32,479 nt of DNA from Chloroflexota bacterium (GCA_016183425.1 JACPEP010000014.1:102148-134626), one strand, 5' to 3'. Positions 13,979 through 20,317 are shown, counted from the stretch's first letter. Numbers and translations are program-made. The notes: generated by a model not told the origin, from the letters alone.

Positions 13979-16381
13979 ATGCCACTTAGCGAATCCGATA
14001 CCCGTGCCAAGCTGATTGACCCCGCGCTCCACGCCTGTGGCTGGACCGAAGACCTCGTTCGCCGCGAAGAGACAGAGGGAGCCATTGAGATTGTGGATGG
14101 CAGGCCGCGCAAGCGGGCAAAGGGACGCGTGGACTACACTTTGCGCGTCAAGGTCAATTCTGACACCCAGGCGGTCGCCGTGGCAATCATCGAGGCCAAA
14201 GCCGAGCATCTACCGCCAGGACACGGGTTAGAGCAGGCTAAGGTTTACGCCGCCTGCAAACGGCTGAACGTCCCCTTTGTCTTTTCCAGCAATGGGCACC
14301 TTTTTGTCGAGTTCGACCAGTTTAGTGGCCTTACAAGTTCCCTTCGCCCTTTGAGCGACTTCCCTTCGCCTGCCGAATTGCTCGCCCGCTACGAACAAGG
14401 TCATGGCTTCAAGCTATCCGACCCGGCCGCCCGGCCTCTCATTACCCGTTACAGTGGCGGAGAGGGCACACGGCGCTATTACCAGGACGCGGCCATACGC
14501 GCGGTGATGGAAAGGATCGCCGCGGGCGAAAAACGGGCTCTTCTATCCCTCGCCACCGGCTCCGGCAAGACCTTCATTGCCGTCAACTTGCTCAAGCGTA
14601 TCGCCGATGCTGGTCAACTGCGCCGGGCGCTCTTTGTATGCGACCGAGATGAACTGCGCCGCCAGGGGCTGGGGGCGTTTCAAAACGTGTTTGGCGCTGA
14701 TGCAGCCGCTGTCTCCAGTGGCAACCCCGAAAAGAACGCCCGCGTGCTAATTGCCACTTATCAGACTCTGGACATTGATACAGAAGATGGCACGGCCAAC
14801 TTCCTGATGGCCAACTACCCTGAGAACTACTTTAGCCACATAGTCATTGATGAGTGCCACCGCTCGGCCTGGGGGAAGTGGTCAAAGGTGCTATCAAGGA
14901 ATCCTGAAGCGGTGCAGATCGGCCTGACGGCCACGCCGCGCCAGCTTAGAACCGTAACCGGCAGGGCTGCGCCCCGCACAAAGGGCTACCTGGCCACAGG
15001 AGACGAAGGCGACGCCAAGATTATCGCCGACAACCTGAAACACTTCGGTGAGCCCGTCTATGAATACGACCTGGCGCAGGGCATCGAGGATGGCTACCTG
15101 GCCGCCTGCGAGATCATCCGCTGCGACATCTTTCTGGATCAGAAGTCCCAGAGAGAACAAGAAACCGGCGTCGAGCGGGCCGACCTGGTGAACAAGAGCC
15201 TGCGGGATGCCACCACCGGCCAGCCTCTAGAGGTTGCGACAGCCCGCGAGCGGTACGAAGCCGCGAGCTTCGAGGATCGGCTGTTATTGCCAGAGCGGGT
15301 AGCGGCTATGACTCAAGACCTGTTCAATCATTTGCTTAACACCGGCGGCCCCGAGCAAAAGACCATTATCTTCTGCGCCCGTGACCGCCACGCCGATGAC
15401 GTGGCTGCCGCCATGAACAATCTCTATGCCCAATGGTGTGTCAGCAACGGCAAGGCCCGTCTCGATCCCTATGCCTTCAAGTGCACCGCCTCCGTAGGCG
15501 GGTCTGACTACATCGCCGACCTGCGGGACGGCTCTCGCCACCACTTTGTGGCCACTACTGTGGACTTGCTGACCACCGGCGTCGACGTGCCCGTGGTGCG
15601 CAACATCGTCTTCTTCAAATACGTCCGCTCACCGATCGCTTTCTACCAGATGGTGGGACGGGGTACTCGGCTCGATCCGCCGACGGGCAAGTTGATGTTT
15701 CGCGTCTACGACTACACGGACGCCACTCGGCTGTTCGGCCAGAAGTTCATTTCTCAGTTCTCTCCGCCCAGACGGAAGGGTAGAATCGGGTTGGAGCCAG
15801 AGGGGCCGCCGGAACCGACTATCCTGGTCGAGGGATTCGATGTCCGGGTCACCGACGCCGGACGCTACATCGTGACGCATGTCGATGGAAAGGCTATGCC
15901 CGTGACGGTAGAGGAATACAAGGAGCGCCTGGCGGCCAAGCTGGTGGAAGAAGCGCCCACCCTGGAGGCTTTCCGCCATCTTTGGATTGTCCCAACGGAA
16001 CGGCGGGAAATGCTGGGGCGCCTGCCGGACGCGGGACGCTCGGCGGCTCTCGTGCAGGCGCTGGAGGAGATGACGGAATACGATCTTTATGACGTGCTGG
16101 CCGAGCTCGGCTATGGCATGGCGCCGCGCACCAAGATTGAGCGGGCCGACGCCTTCAACTACAAACACGATGCCTGGCTCTCGGGTCTGCCAACGCGAGC
16201 CGCCGCCACGCTAAAGGCCCTAGCCGCCCAGTTTGCCCGCGCCGGGACGGATGGCCTGGAGAATCCGCAGGTCTTCCAGACTCCGGAGGTGGTTCGGGCC
16301 GGGGGACTGGCTGCCCTCAAGGTGATCGGCAAGCCCGCCGATGCCTTGCGCGAGACCAAAGAGAGAATGTTCGCCGCATGA
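13979..16381 (+). CDS. hsdR: Type I restriction enzyme, R (motor/nuclease) subunit
   Basis: An 800-residue HsdR. The N-terminal nuclease domain has a PD-(D/E)xK-like arrangement: Asp52 in VDYTL and Glu72-x-Lys74 in IIEAKAE. The superfamily 2 translocase follows, with the QxxA-like YYQDAAIRAVM, Walker A ATGSGKT (192-198), the DEAD-box variant DECH (291-294), GLTATP, then TTVDLLTTGVDVPVVRN and the arginine-finger region MVGRGTRLD. The C-terminal third resembles the EcoEI-type HsdR tail that docks on the methylase. With HsdS and HsdM it would cleave DNA lacking host methylation. ATG 13979 follows TAGGAGGGT. Its TGA overlaps the ATG of the RAYT gene. Confidence 0.93.
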   Translation: MPLSESDTRAKLIDPALHACGWTEDLVRREETEGAIEIVDGRPRKRAKGRVDYTLRVKVNSDTQAVAVAIIEAKAEHLPPGHGLEQAKVYAACKRLNVPFVFSSNGHLFVEFDQFSGLTSSLRPLSDFPSPAELLARYEQGHGFKLSDPAARPLITRYSGGEGTRRYYQDAAIRAVMERIAAGEKRALLSLATGSGKTFIAVNLLKRIADAGQLRRALFVCDRDELRRQGLGAFQNVFGADAAAVSSGNPEKNARVLIATYQTLDIDTEDGTANFLMANYPENYFSHIVIDECHRSAWGKWSKVLSRNPEAVQIGLTATPRQLRTVTGRAAPRTKGYLATGDEGDAKIIADNLKHFGEPVYEYDLAQGIEDGYLAACEIIRCDIFLDQKSQREQETGVERADLVNKSLRDATTGQPLEVATARERYEAASFEDRLLLPERVAAMTQDLFNHLLNTGGPEQKTIIFCARDRHADDVAAAMNNLYAQWCVSNGKARLDPYAFKCTASVGGSDYIADLRDGSRHHFVATTVDLLTTGVDVPVVRNIVFFKYVRSPIAFYQMVGRGTRLDPPTGKLMFRVYDYTDATRLFGQKFISQFSPPRRKGRIGLEPEGPPEPTILVEGFDVRVTDAGRYIVTHVDGKAMPVTVEEYKERLAAKLVEEAPTLEAFRHLWIVPTERREMLGRLPDAGRSAALVQALEEMTEYDLYDVLAELGYGMAPRTKIERADAFNYKHDAWLSGLPTRAAATLKALAAQFARAGTDGLENPQVFQTPEVVRAGGLAALKVIGKPADALRETKERMFAA

Positions 16382-17088
16382 GCTACGACTCGGTCAAACA
16401 CCGCCGCCTCTCCATCCGGTTGAAGGAGTACGATTATTCCCAGTCGGGGGCCTATTTTGTGACCATCTGCGCGCAGGGGCAGGAGTGCCTCTTTGGGGAG
16501 ATTGTGGGGGACGGAATGCGGTTGAATGACGCGGGGAGGATGGTCTTATCGGAGTGGGAGGATTTGTCCAGACATTACCCCCACGTTAAATTAGATGCGT
16601 TTGTTATTATGCCGAACCATGCGCACGCAATTGTTGTTTTAGCCGATGCCGAGGTGTTGGGAATGGGGGTGGGTGTTGGTCATGTTGGCATGGATGACCA
16701 TAACGTAGGGGCGGGTGCCGGTCATATTGGAATGGATGACGATCGCGTAGGGGCGGGTTTGAAACCCGCCCCTACCGGGTTACGCCATGGGTTGTCGGAG
16801 ATCGTTAGGGCGTTAAAAACGTTCTCGGCCCGCCGGATCAATAAAATGCGTGATATGCCGGGCGCACCGGTATGGCAACGTGGTTATTATGAACACGTGA
16901 TTCGCGGTGATGATGAATTGAAGCGAATTCGCGAATATATCGCCATGAATCCCGCGCAATGGGCAGGGGACGCGGAGAACCCTGCGTCCGCATCAGGCGG
17001 ATCAGGACGGTATCCGGGTGTAGGGGCGGGTTTCAAACCCGCCCCTACCAGCAGACCTGCCCCTGGAGAGGTGCCGTGGCAAATGTAA
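16378..17088 (+). CDS. REP-associated tyrosine transposase (RAYT, Y1/HUH family)
   Basis: A 236-residue Y1 HUH-type protein of the RAYT family, single-strand endonucleases thought to mobilise REP palindromes. Seen: the N-terminal start RRLSIRLKEYDYSQSGAYFVTICAQG, the metal-binding HxH at His81/His83 (MPNHAHAIVVL), the tyrosine region WQRGYYEHVIR (Tyr170/171) and the ending REYIAMNPAQW. Between the HxH and Tyr regions is a low-complexity insert (about 95-133) made from a 42-base tandem duplication and a GTAGGGGC palindrome; a second palindrome encodes the tail (213-224). The gene lies between hsdR (ATGA overlap) and hsdS (13-base overlap), so it is translated as part of the restriction operon. 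All catalytic parts seem intact; activity is unproven. Confidence 0.85.
   Translation: MSYDSVKHRRLSIRLKEYDYSQSGAYFVTICAQGQECLFGEIVGDGMRLNDAGRMVLSEWEDLSRHYPHVKLDAFVIMPNHAHAIVVLADAEVLGMGVGVGHVGMDDHNVGAGAGHIGMDDDRVGAGLKPAPTGLRHGLSEIVRALKTFSARRINKMRDMPGAPVWQRGYYEHVIRGDDELKRIREYIAMNPAQWAGDAENPASASGGSGRYPGVGAGFKPAPTSRPAPGEVPWQM
16678..16761 (+). repeat. 42-base tandem duplication inside the RAYT gene
   Basis: Two adjacent 42-base copies (16678-16719 and 16720-16761) differ at several positions and encode GHVGMDDHNVGAGA then GHIGMDDDRVGAGL. The unit carries a half palindrome (TAGGGGCGGGT), and the second copy runs directly into the complete palindrome. The length is a multiple of three, so the frame is kept. 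Confidence 0.75.
16747..16775. repeat. REP-like palindrome, copy 1
   Basis: A 29-base perfect inverted repeat: the 14-base arm GTAGGGGCGGGTTT, one G, then the exact complement of the arm. It lies inside the RAYT reading frame, where it encodes VGAGLKPAPT. It is identical to copy 2 apart from the central base and is a likely substrate of the RAYT in which it sits. Confidence 0.85.
17020..17048. repeat. REP-like palindrome, copy 2
   Basis: The same 14-base arms as copy 1 around a central C instead of G. It encodes VGAGFKPAPT near the end of the RAYT frame and lies 27 bases before the hsdS start codon. As RNA it would form a very stable hairpin close to the hsdS ribosome-binding site. Confidence 0.85.
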
Positions 17089-18323
17089 GTGTCGGCAAAC
17101 ACCCGCTCCCCGACGGCTGGCACTGGGTACGGCTGGGGGAGGTGTGCATGTTTAATCCCCGCCGACCCGAGTTGCGGCGTTCCGATGATGAGCTGACAAC
17201 CTTTGTGCCCATGGCGGCGGTGGATGAGGCTGGTCGTGGCATTAGCCGAGCAGAGTTGAAGCCATTCGCTGAGATAAAGAGAGGTTACACTTACTTTGGC
17301 GAGGGCGATGTGCTTTTCGCCAAGATTACTCCATGTATGCAAAACGGCAAGCATGCCATTGCTCGAAATCTCACTGATGGTATTGGCTTCGGTTCCACCG
17401 AGTTTCACGTCATCCGCCCTGGCCCCACTATTGTCCGTGAATGGGTCCATCTTTTTGTCCTCCAGCCCTGGGTGCTGCAAGAAGCGACGGCGCACTTTAG
17501 CGGCGCGGTTGGACAACAGCGCTTACCCGAAGCCTATCTGTCTGGCCTGGAAATCCCCCTCCCCCCCCTTGCCGAACAGAAGCGCATTGCGGCTATCCTC
17601 AATGACCAGATGTCGGCAATAGAGCGAGCACGGGCGGCTGCCGAGACGCGGTTGGAGGCGGCCAAGGCTCTGCCCGCCGCCTATCTCCGCCAGGTGTTCG
17701 AGTCCGAGGAGGCTGAGTCGTGGCCGAGGAAGCGGCTGGGTGAGGTGTGCCGCTCAATGCAATACGGCCTGTCTCTTCCAATGAACGACGATGGTCGCGG
17801 CTATCCTGTCATACGTATGAACAACATCAAGGACGGAACCATCGATATCAATGAGATTCGGTATGTAGAAGTTGAGCACGCACAGGCAAAGAAGTTTGCC
17901 CTGGAGAAAGGTGACATCCTTGTCAACAGAACCAACAGCGCCGAACTGGTGGGCAAATCGGCGGTCTTCGACCGCGAAGGAGACCAGGTTTACGTCTTTG
18001 CTTCTTATCTGATACGGCTGGCACTGCTACGCGAAGTTGCAGTACCCCACTATGTAGCTTTCGCACTCAACTCTCGCGTAGGCAGAGAGTATGTAGAGCG
18101 AACCCTACGCCGAGCCATCGGGCAAGCCAACATCAATTCGCAGGAAATAGCGGCCTTTGAATTCCCGCTGCCCCCAGTTGCCCGCCAGGAGCGACTAGCC
18201 GCGCAAGTTGGTGACAAGATGACGGCTGTTAAAGGGGCCTGCAGAGCGCTTGAGGAACAACTGGACACCATCAACAAGCTCCCGGCGGCTCTTCTGCGCC
18301 GGGCCTTCAGCGGGGGGCTGTAG
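17076..18323 (+). CDS. hsdS: Type I restriction-modification specificity subunit HsdS
   Basis: A 415-residue HsdS, which recognises the bipartite DNA target for both methylation and restriction. Two target-recognition domains are visible. TRD1 starts at LPDGWHWVRLGEVC and ends at the central conserved helix IPLPPLAEQKRIAAILND. TRD2 starts at WPRKRLGEVCRSMQYG and ends at FPLPPVARQERLAAQV, followed by the second helix and LPAALLRRAFSGGL. The two differ greatly between these anchors, as expected for a split recognition site. The frame is open upstream to 16959, but GTG 17076 has GGAGAGG and HsdS homology starts just after it. The upstream RAYT gene overlaps it by 13 bases. Confidence 0.92.
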   Translation: MANVSVGKHPLPDGWHWVRLGEVCMFNPRRPELRRSDDELTTFVPMAAVDEAGRGISRAELKPFAEIKRGYTYFGEGDVLFAKITPCMQNGKHAIARNLTDGIGFGSTEFHVIRPGPTIVREWVHLFVLQPWVLQEATAHFSGAVGQQRLPEAYLSGLEIPLPPLAEQKRIAAILNDQMSAIERARAAAETRLEAAKALPAAYLRQVFESEEAESWPRKRLGEVCRSMQYGLSLPMNDDGRGYPVIRMNNIKDGTIDINEIRYVEVEHAQAKKFALEKGDILVNRTNSAELVGKSAVFDREGDQVYVFASYLIRLALLREVAVPHYVAFALNSRVGREYVERTLRRAIGQANINSQEIAAFEFPLPPVARQERLAAQVGDKMTAVKGACRALEEQLDTINKLPAALLRRAFSGGL

Positions 18324-18364: not shown

Positions 18365-18392
18365 GTAGGGGCGCAGCATGCTGCGCCCCTAC
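18365..18392. repeat. GTAGGGGC palindrome between hsdS and hsdM
   Basis: A 28-base perfect palindrome: arm GTAGGGGCGCAGCA followed by its exact complement. It shares the outer GTAGGGGCG with the two RAYT-gene palindromes but has a different core, so it looks like a sister class of the same element. It sits in the 114-base gap between hsdS and hsdM and could shape expression of hsdM as an RNA hairpin. No T-run follows, so it is not a classical terminator. Confidence 0.8.
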
Positions 18393-18437
18393 GGGATGCT
18401 GTCCCGCGGCGGCGGGCGTTCTCTAGAGGTCTGTAGG

Positions 18438-19976
18438 ATGGCCAAACGCAATGGCGTAACCAACGGCAAGCGCTTGGCCACCCAGCAATCGGTCAATGCC
18501 GCCATCAAGTCCATCTGCGACATCATGCGGCGCTCTAACTGCGCCGGGGCTCTTCAATACGTTCCAGAGCTAACGTGGATTCTTTTCTTACGCATCCTGG
18601 ACGAACGAGAGACCCAGGAGGCGGAATGGGCCGAGGCCGTGGGTGCGGACTTCGCACCGTCGCTGGAGACCCCTTACTGTTGGCAGGACTGGGCCGCCCC
18701 TGGCGGACCGAAGCGGGCGGAGCTACAGAACAGCACTCTGGGGGCTTTCTTTGCCTTCGTGAACGGCGACCTCATCCCTCATCTGAAGGGCTTGCGCGAG
18801 CGTCCTAACGCCACCCCGCGTCAGAAAGTCATCAGCGAAATCTTCTCCGGCGTGGAACACGTGCGCATTGACACTGAGCGCAATCTGCTGGACGTGCTGG
18901 ACAAGGTGCACGAGATCAGCTCCAACGGCGTTGATCAAACTCACGTCTTCACCCTCTCCCAGGTCTACGAAGGGCTGCTCCTCAAGATGGGAGAGAAGGG
19001 GAACGACGGCGGCCAGTTCTTCACCCCGCGAGAGGTCATCCGGGCCATGGTGAAGGTCATTGACCCAAAGATTGGTGAGACGGTTTACGATCCCGGCTGC
19101 GGGACCGGCGGCTTCCTGGCCCAGTCTTTTGAGCATATGGCCGGACTCAATAATGCCTATATCACGTCGCCAAACCAGTTAGAGACCATCAAGCGCTACA
19201 CCTTCTACGGACGTGAGAAGGACAACGCCATTTACCCCATCGCCCTGGCTAACCTCGTTTTGCACAACATTGACGAGCCGCACGTGTGGCATGGAAATAC
19301 TTTAACGGGGGCCGAGATATACGGAGGCCTTTTCGCCAATGCGCCTGCGCTTTACGATGTGGTGCTAATGAATCCTCCCTTTGGGGGAAAGGAGGGCAAG
19401 GAGGCCCAAACCCGTTTCTCTTACAAGACAGGGGCCACCCAGGTTCTTTTTCTCCAGCACGTCATAGACAGTCTAAAGCCGGGGGGACGCTGTGGCATCG
19501 TTCTTGATGAAGGAGTGCTCTTTCGAACCAACGAGACAGCCTTTGTCCAGACCAAGCGCAAGCTCCTTGACGATTGCGATCTGTGGTGCATCGTTAGCCT
19601 GCCTGGTGGCGTGTTCACGGCGGCGGGTGCGGGCGTGAAGACCAATCTCCTTTTCTTCACTAAGGGCGAGCCGACGGAGCGTATTTGGTATTACGACCTC
19701 TCAGACATCAAGGTGGGCAAGAAGACCCCTTTGACGATAGACAGATTCGAGGAACTCTTCCGCTTGCTGCCGGAGCGTGGCGATAGTGAACGCAGTTGGA
19801 CGGTAGCACGCCAAGAGATCGAGGCGAAGAGCTATGATCTCAAGGCAGTGAACCCGAATGCCAAGAATGATGAGGACACGCGGACACCTGAAGAGTTACT
19901 GGACCTAATTGACGCTAAGGGACGCGAAGTAGCTGAAGCTTTGGCATCCTTGCGTGTCGGACATGACATGCTATAG
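18438..19976 (+). CDS. hsdM: Type I restriction-modification N6-adenine methyltransferase HsdM
   Basis: A 512-residue HsdM that methylates adenine in the target defined by HsdS. The N-terminal helical domain (residues about 15-170) contains SICDIMRRSNCAGA and the LRILDERE motif. The catalytic domain has GGQFFTPREVIRAM (191-204), SAM-binding DPGCGTGGFL (218-227) and the catalytic NPPF (312-315) in VVLMNPPFGGKEG. The tail SYDLKAVNPNAKNDEDTRTPEELL is typical. The frame is open to 18378 across the palindrome, but ATG 18438, after TGTAGG, matches the family start MAKR..., so I choose it. Type I operons more often place hsdM before hsdS; here the order is R-S-M. Confidence 0.95.
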   Translation: MAKRNGVTNGKRLATQQSVNAAIKSICDIMRRSNCAGALQYVPELTWILFLRILDERETQEAEWAEAVGADFAPSLETPYCWQDWAAPGGPKRAELQNSTLGAFFAFVNGDLIPHLKGLRERPNATPRQKVISEIFSGVEHVRIDTERNLLDVLDKVHEISSNGVDQTHVFTLSQVYEGLLLKMGEKGNDGGQFFTPREVIRAMVKVIDPKIGETVYDPGCGTGGFLAQSFEHMAGLNNAYITSPNQLETIKRYTFYGREKDNAIYPIALANLVLHNIDEPHVWHGNTLTGAEIYGGLFANAPALYDVVLMNPPFGGKEGKEAQTRFSYKTGATQVLFLQHVIDSLKPGGRCGIVLDEGVLFRTNETAFVQTKRKLLDDCDLWCIVSLPGGVFTAAGAGVKTNLLFFTKGEPTERIWYYDLSDIKVGKKTPLTIDRFEELFRLLPERGDSERSWTVARQEIEAKSYDLKAVNPNAKNDEDTRTPEELLDLIDAKGREVAEALASLRVGHDML

Positions 19977-20240: not shown

Positions 20241-20317
20241 TGGCGACCCCGAGGGGATTCGAACCCCTGATCTCCACCGTGACAGGGTGGCATGTTAGTC
20301 CGCTACACCACGGGGCC
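20241..20317 (-). tRNA. tRNA-Asp (anticodon GTC)
   Basis: On the minus strand the seven-base acceptor arm GGCCCCG pairs with CGGGGTC (one G-U pair). The D arm is GTGTAGCGGACTAAC-like. The anticodon loop CTGTCAC sits in the stem CCACC.. and reads GTC. The T arm AGGGGTTCGAATCCCCT is typical. Discriminator G73 and an encoded CCA (20243-20241) complete it. It lies just after trpB and has its own promoter. Confidence 0.96.

Follow-up and report, generated by a model that had tools for sequence, protein, structure and literature searches.

The RAYT gene analysed here carries a REP-type palindrome within its own coding sequence, and from comparisons of sequence we conclude that this in-gene palindrome is a maintained, cognate and built-in substrate, which may serve in autoregulation or as a seed copy. 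On balance, we favour the view that the gene is a group 4 RAYT with its own cognate REP hairpin in a linker, kept as a self-recognition site or seed copy. The arrangement is of a known kind, while its long-term maintenance, the co-evolution of the palindrome with the reader helix and the association with hsd genes go beyond the published findings that we located.

A RAYT gene between hsdR and hsdS

The window, i.e. the whole stretch of 32,479 nt of Chloroflexota DNA that was analysed, contains an intact RAYT ORF, with hsdR and hsdS as its neighbours on either side. The hsdR stop codon TGA is located at 16379-16381, so that ATGA forms a 4-nt overlap with the RAYT start. The RAYT stop codon is at 17086-17088 and the likely hsdS start is a GTG at 17076, giving an overlap of 13 nt. 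These coordinates confirm what an earlier note on this DNA had described, namely an intact RAYT between hsdR and hsdS with overlaps of 4 and 13 nt. The ORF matched Pfam Y1_Tnp (PF01797) with 29.8 bits (cut-off 23) and, below the cut-off of 80, NCBIfam REP_Tyr_transpos with 66.4 bits, the latter in two separate stretches because of the RAYT linker. An Rfam search of the window returned a tRNA at 20244-20317 and nothing else. The features are as follows.

13979..16381, plus strand: hsdR, the upstream neighbour, a type I restriction subunit (EcoAI/FtnUII-like; Pfam ResIII and EcoEI_R_C; NCBIfam NF046051 at 440 bits, below the cut-off of 550)
16378..17088, plus strand: RAYT (TnpA_REP, subclass 2.4-like), 236 aa, start in the ATGA overlap with hsdR (PF01797; best fold match 4er8_A, Z 13.1)
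16546..16581, plus strand: codons of the second covarying segment (residues 57-68, LSEWEDLSRHYP; correlation with the palindrome core, r 0.30, permutation maximum 0.10)
16612..16626, plus strand: HuH motif PNHAH (His81, His83), invariant in the alignments
16666..16749, plus strand: two 42-nt tandem units in the linker, each with the 5′ half of the palindrome (81% identical direct repeat)
16747..16775, plus strand: palindrome 1, an in-gene double-foot REP in the HuH-alpha3 linker, encoding VGAGLKPAPT (predicted RNA hairpin)
16780..16836, plus strand: codons of the DNA-reading helix alpha3 (residues 135-153), directly 3′ of palindrome 1 (model helix 139-158; core covariation r 0.48)
16936..16938, plus strand: catalytic Tyr187 (YIAMNP), an invariant column
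17020..17048, plus strand: palindrome 2, in opposite orientation to palindrome 1, within the part of the ORF that encodes the RAYT C-terminal tail
17076..18323, plus strand: hsdS, type I specificity subunit (PF01420), GTG start inferred, 13-nt overlap with RAYT
18365..18392, plus strand: palindrome of a second family (core GCAGCATGCTGC) between hsdS and hsdM
18378..19976, plus strand: hsdM, type I methyltransferase (PF02384, PF12161)

Palindromes 1 and 2 are 29 nt each and correspond to GTAGGGGCGGGTTTGAAACCCGCCCCTAC and its reverse complement. As the earlier note had observed, the two are near-identical and lie within the RAYT coding frame; they differ at the centre base only and are therefore mutual reverse complements. 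Matches to the palindrome were absent from 100 dinucleotide shuffles. In the genome to which the window belongs (2.70 Mb, 52 contigs), 11 copies were detected at up to 3 mismatches, 7 of which are exact; a reversed control pattern gave no copies. Chance palindromes were ruled out by the dinucleotide shuffles, by shuffled linkers and by random genome pieces. Palindrome 1 is positioned in the linker that leads from the HuH motif to helix alpha3, and palindrome 2 in the C-terminal tail, where relatives have a palindrome just 3′ of the gene. Palindrome 2 is best explained as a downstream flanking REP that is read through by the RAYT ORF as a bridge to hsdS, and it belongs in this sense to an overall reading that we hold to be fairly probable.

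The same genome contains a second RAYT (G000:C31:11773-12372, minus strand), whose palindrome, GTAGGGGCGGTTCGCGAACCGCCCCTAC, differs from that of the first but occupies the equivalent site, read in another frame; of this palindrome there are one exact genome copy and one with one mismatch. One genome thus has two RAYTs with two different in-gene palindromes at one common site. The palindrome between hsdS and hsdM, GTAGGGGCGCAGCATGCTGCGCCCCTAC, constitutes a third family with five genome copies, two of them with one centre change. No cognate RAYT for this family was found in its own genome, and a Desulfuromonas RAYT (L059) has exactly this 28-mer in its gene. The listed ATG of hsdM falls inside this palindrome, and the true hsdM start is probably located further on. 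Copies of the window palindrome at four loci (L001, L003, L006, L008) either coincided with the stop codons of genes for large surface-type proteins or had a common longer 3′ flank (CCCGATGCATGTAGTCGGCGTCGTC); judging from this placement and flank, some genome copies are part of a larger composite repeat. In addition, the GTAG of palindrome copies is often the source of a TAG stop codon.

Class of the RAYT and known systems

Alignments of 17 and 76 relatives identified His81, His83, Trp166 and Tyr187 as invariant columns. The best fold match of the RAYT model was 4er8_A, the E. coli TnpA_REP with a REP hairpin (Foldseek E 3.5e-7, Z 13.1, 130 aligned residues). In this model, residues 95-137 form a linker between the strand 81-88 and the helix 139-158, and residues 99-130 mostly have a pLDDT below 50 and are predicted to be disordered. 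The palindrome at 16747-16775 is of the double-foot type (GTAG...CTAC), in frame and within the HuH-Tyr interval. In-frame REPs within the gene, in the HuH-Tyr interval, were described as a unique feature of TnpA_REP subclass 2.4, for which double-foot REPs are also given (Quentin et al. 2018, PMC6006769). The same study maps subclass 2.4 onto RAYT group 4 of Bertels et al. 2017 and regards the insertion as a peripheral extension of little effect. The window RAYT fits this subclass 2.4 / group 4 kind, as placed by alignment, linker, palindrome type and fold. Specifically, it has in common with subclass 2.4 an insertion that separates the HuH strand from helix alphaC (beta3-alphaC) and varies in length and sequence, double-foot REPs (GTAG...CTAC), in-frame REPs between HuH and Tyr, and short insertion repeats. 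Since it was described for subclass 2.4, the basic in-gene REP arrangement was already known, and the term 'unusual' in the earlier note is not supported for a feature that is published and occurs in 82 of 110 relatives. What the present analysis adds to the subclass 2.4 description is the DNA-level conservation, the covariation with alpha3, the retention as a single copy and the hsd association.

The window RAYT resembles the E. coli TnpA_REP (PDB 4ER8; group 2) in its fold, the HuH motif, the single Tyr and the GTAG foot, but the E. coli REPs are bulged and located outside the gene, and the E. coli enzyme lacks the long linker insertion. With the IS200/IS605 TnpA proteins (IS608, ISDra2), it has in common the HuH/Y1 single-strand transposase fold and, probably, the recognition of subterminal hairpins; unlike for these elements, however, left and right ends were not identified around the gene. 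The NCBIfam IS200 profile NF033573 scored 20.1 bits against a cut-off of 55, no end hairpins flank the gene, and the gene overlaps both hsdR and hsdS. This score and the absence of identifiable ends speak against an IS200/IS605 element. Two IS200-like TnpA genes that also belong to this genome (L012, L013) lack palindromes in the HuH-Tyr interval, their palindromes being at or beyond the gene ends. In-frame palindromes within coding genes are also known from the Rickettsia palindromic elements (RPE) and intragenic REPs (PMC3733652). Those reside in many unrelated genes, whereas the host of the window palindrome is its presumed own enzyme and the site is conserved.

In-gene palindromes among relatives

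To place the in-gene palindrome among relatives, 110 RAYTs with HuH and WQ motifs were considered (109 distinct, since L020 and L101 are identical). About 30 of these loci come from 301 genomes of the phylum and the rest almost all from named contigs, covering more than 10 phyla. A palindrome score of at least 8 in the HuH-to-WQ linker was reached by 82/110 relatives, a share that is no survey of all RAYTs because the relatives were chosen by similarity to the window RAYT, as compared to 31/400 for 200-nt pieces drawn at random from these genomes. With a smaller maximum loop, a score of at least 9 was reached by 65/110 real linkers and by 0/550 shuffled ones. Elsewhere, palindromes with scores of at least 8 occurred before HuH in 9 relatives, and within 1 kb upstream or downstream in about 60 each. 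Most linker palindromes start with GTAGGGG, and their offsets from HuH cluster at 15-54 nt. This motif was read in frame 0 in 45 linkers and in frame 1 in 18, and never in frame 2, where it would give the stop codon TAG. About a quarter of the relatives had no clear linker palindrome and a few linkers (L067, L057) are short and empty; the in-gene palindrome is therefore not indispensable. In a single search of viral contigs for RAYT relatives, two weak ones and no others were found.

The palindrome behaves as a cognate REP

When in-gene and flanking GGG-type palindromes of the same locus were compared, 41/59 matched at 9/10 positions or more, as opposed to a permutation mean of 4.3 and a maximum of 12 in 2000. 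Furthermore, when the RAYT tree was calculated with the linker left out, 36 changes sufficed to explain the first four bases of the core, versus 61 with shuffled labels (minimum 55). One clade (L045, L063, L078, L087, L119), representing the genome of the window, two Nitrospirota, a Planctomycetota and a cyanobacterium, has an identical 28-mer, and in the first four of these members the palindrome position (offset 25) and frame are kept across several phyla. The exact window palindrome was present in 10 genomes, 9 of which are among the 96/301 with a RAYT match. The palindromes, which the earlier note had assigned to the RAYT substrate kind, thus behave as cognate REPs, the core tracking both the RAYT tree and alpha3. 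The 'recent self-targeting' of the earlier note is not supported, given identical in-gene palindromes in different phyla, where the proteins are about 60% identical. Recent self-insertion in this one genome was set aside as the main reading in view of the same in-gene site throughout the group and of clades with one common palindrome.

The copy number of the in-gene palindrome is often low. There was one copy in the L082 genome, one (with one mismatch) in the L112 genome, two in the L063 genome, both on the RAYT contig about 300 nt apart, four within 1.2 kb on one contig in the L078 genome, and three on one contig in the L086 genome. In G122, the single exact copy is the one inside its RAYT. 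As judged from these copy numbers, the in-gene copy persists even where no other exact donor was found. In many-copy genomes (42 copies in G033, 46 in that of L088 and 30 in that of L104), copying from other REPs could be an alternative keeper of the perfect in-gene copy.

Conceivably, the RAYT could repeatedly insert or re-copy a REP into its own gene, with the nascent protein acting in cis and only linker insertions surviving. In several linkers, two or three palindromes occur together (L022, L068, L105, L108, L116), extra half palindromes were present in the linkers of 18/52 relatives, flanking copies match the internal palindrome, and one clade carries the same palindrome in two reading frames (L079/L091 versus L090/L100), all of which would be in line with such homing. 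Nevertheless, the position and frame kept in the multi-phylum clade, and the perfect palindrome of L082 for which no other exact donor copy was found, argue against it, and we consider recurrent homing unlikely. The extra half palindromes, among them the two 42-nt tandem units described above, point to slippage or to a transfer of strands at the foot of the hairpin. In another RAYT between hsdR and hsdS (L140 / L201, G081, 830-1627), the linker has about six near-identical tandem VGATGGTSAMAQDS units, each containing a half palindrome.

Conservation as DNA and covariation with the reader helix

The hairpin is conserved as DNA and not as peptide. In a comparison limited to eight clades whose members have a common core, 274/274 same-amino-acid codons were identical inside the palindromes versus 1239/2387 (52%) outside, the proteins within these clades being about 51-63% identical. 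A function of the peptide VGAGLKPAPT was ruled out, since the palindrome is translated in two different frames, in one case by members of a single clade.

A sliding scan along the RAYT protein, in which the similarity of each segment was related to the similarity of the palindrome core, singled out alpha3 (19 columns; r 0.48, partial 0.46, permutation maximum 0.08), and r was 0.40 for the half of the pairs at greater distance. The segment before HuH (residues 57-68) gave an r of 0.30 (partial 0.29, permutation maximum 0.10), while the correlation with the rest of the protein was weak (r 0.23, and 0.09 among distant pairs). Because the uncorrelated HuH region separates the upstream segment from the palindrome, mere linkage would not account for the covariation of this segment. 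In E. coli TnpA_REP, alpha3 contains K82, a REP contact (PMC8266576). Changes in the palindrome core thus go along with changes in alpha3 and in one further short stretch of the protein, as the scan shows.

These data also bear on the possibility, suggested by the view of Quentin et al. (2018), that a REP fell into a flexible linker, was harmless there and has been retained by drift. In the model the linker is disordered, its length varies greatly among relatives (126-357 nt), and REPs occur inside unrelated genes as well (PMC3733652). Such a neutral passenger is, however, already disfavoured by the codon test, in which about half of the same-amino-acid codons outside the palindrome differed and none inside. 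In addition, the core covaries with alpha3 and the upstream segment, and perfect palindromes persist as single copies. We therefore regard neutral persistence as improbable.

A possible role for the in-gene hairpin

The reading that we prefer is a cognate hairpin kept by selection. The in-gene hairpin is probably recognised by the RAYT, and an arrangement of this kind proves to be normal and of long standing in this group of enzymes rather than a recent accident. According to this model, the RAYT coding sequence holds its own hairpin in a flexible linker, predicted to be disordered, that joins the HuH strand to alpha3. The hairpin is inherited at a roughly fixed place, and often the genome has no other exact copy or hardly any. 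The RAYT may bind this hairpin in single-stranded DNA, which replication or transcription would expose, or possibly in its own mRNA. From such binding it would follow that the in-gene copy is kept either as a cis-acting self-recognition site, limiting the expression or activity of the enzyme itself, or as a seed, so that the substrate is sure to travel with any RAYT gene that is transferred. The placement in the hsd operon is one case of a recurrent association, probably offering regular transcription and a mobile vehicle to the RAYT.

This bears on the question of why bacteria keep RAYTs as single-copy, non-jumping genes. The in-gene substrate makes RAYT specificity and autoregulation directly testable. 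Moreover, a substrate and a reader helix that co-change over great distances provide a ready-made recognition code, with dozens of genes stating both protein and hairpin.

Association with type I R-M operons

Genes of the hsd type were detected in 18/160 RAYT surroundings and in 0/40 control windows from the same genomes, a share that may be inflated because the sampling followed similarity to a RAYT that is itself hsd-embedded, although the hsd-linked RAYTs are scattered over the tree. HsdM_N occurred at 6 listed places in RAYT surroundings versus 0.21 expected (P ~9e-8, with loci treated as independent), and type I R-M genes were the commonest direct RAYT neighbours by Pfam. In all 19 hsd loci the RAYT was co-oriented with the hsd genes. 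The order hsdR-RAYT-hsdS recurred in G081, where RAYT and palindrome differ from those of the window; the orders hsdS-RAYT-hsdM (L067, L056, G019) and hsdS-RAYT-hsdR (G238, G150) were also encountered. One operon of G150 (L177, 3299-9514) has two RAYTs on a single strand in the order hsdM-RAYT-hsdS-RAYT-hsdR. No earlier report of a RAYT/type I R-M association was found in the literature searched, a scope outside which most subscription papers fall. This recurrent placement offers a new lead on how RAYTs may serve their hosts or how they spread.

The over-representation, the uniform orientation and the operon with two RAYTs would also suit a functional link in which the RAYT and its REPs act on the hsd operon, for instance by recombining or varying hsdS, but this seems very unlikely, as the window contains neither inverted hsdS fragments nor palindromes within hsdS, RAYTs reside in other operons such as metH-MTHFR, and the RAYT types of hsd operons are scattered over the RAYT tree. 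For the role in moving or varying hsdS that the earlier note had proposed, no evidence was found, and shuffling of hsdS found no support; a RAYT between hsd genes is, however, a recurrent and co-oriented arrangement. Returning to the selected cognate hairpin, we tentatively extend it to a broader proposal, about which we are less than evenly convinced: group 4 RAYTs may be self-referential, with the hairpin substrate stored beside the codons of its reader helix and selected as a cis-acting site for autoregulation or seeding, and a good part of these RAYTs may be standing passengers or components of type I R-M operons.

In the Anaerolineales (L069, L121, L130), a co-oriented RAYT was observed with MTHFR on one side and genes for homocysteine methyltransferase / B12-dependent methionine synthase on the other. 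In related hsd operons (L135, L144, L161), the slot after hsdR is occupied by other small genes, namely a zinc-ribbon protein and, as judged by eye, a DinD-like ORF. This slot seems to accept accessory genes generally.
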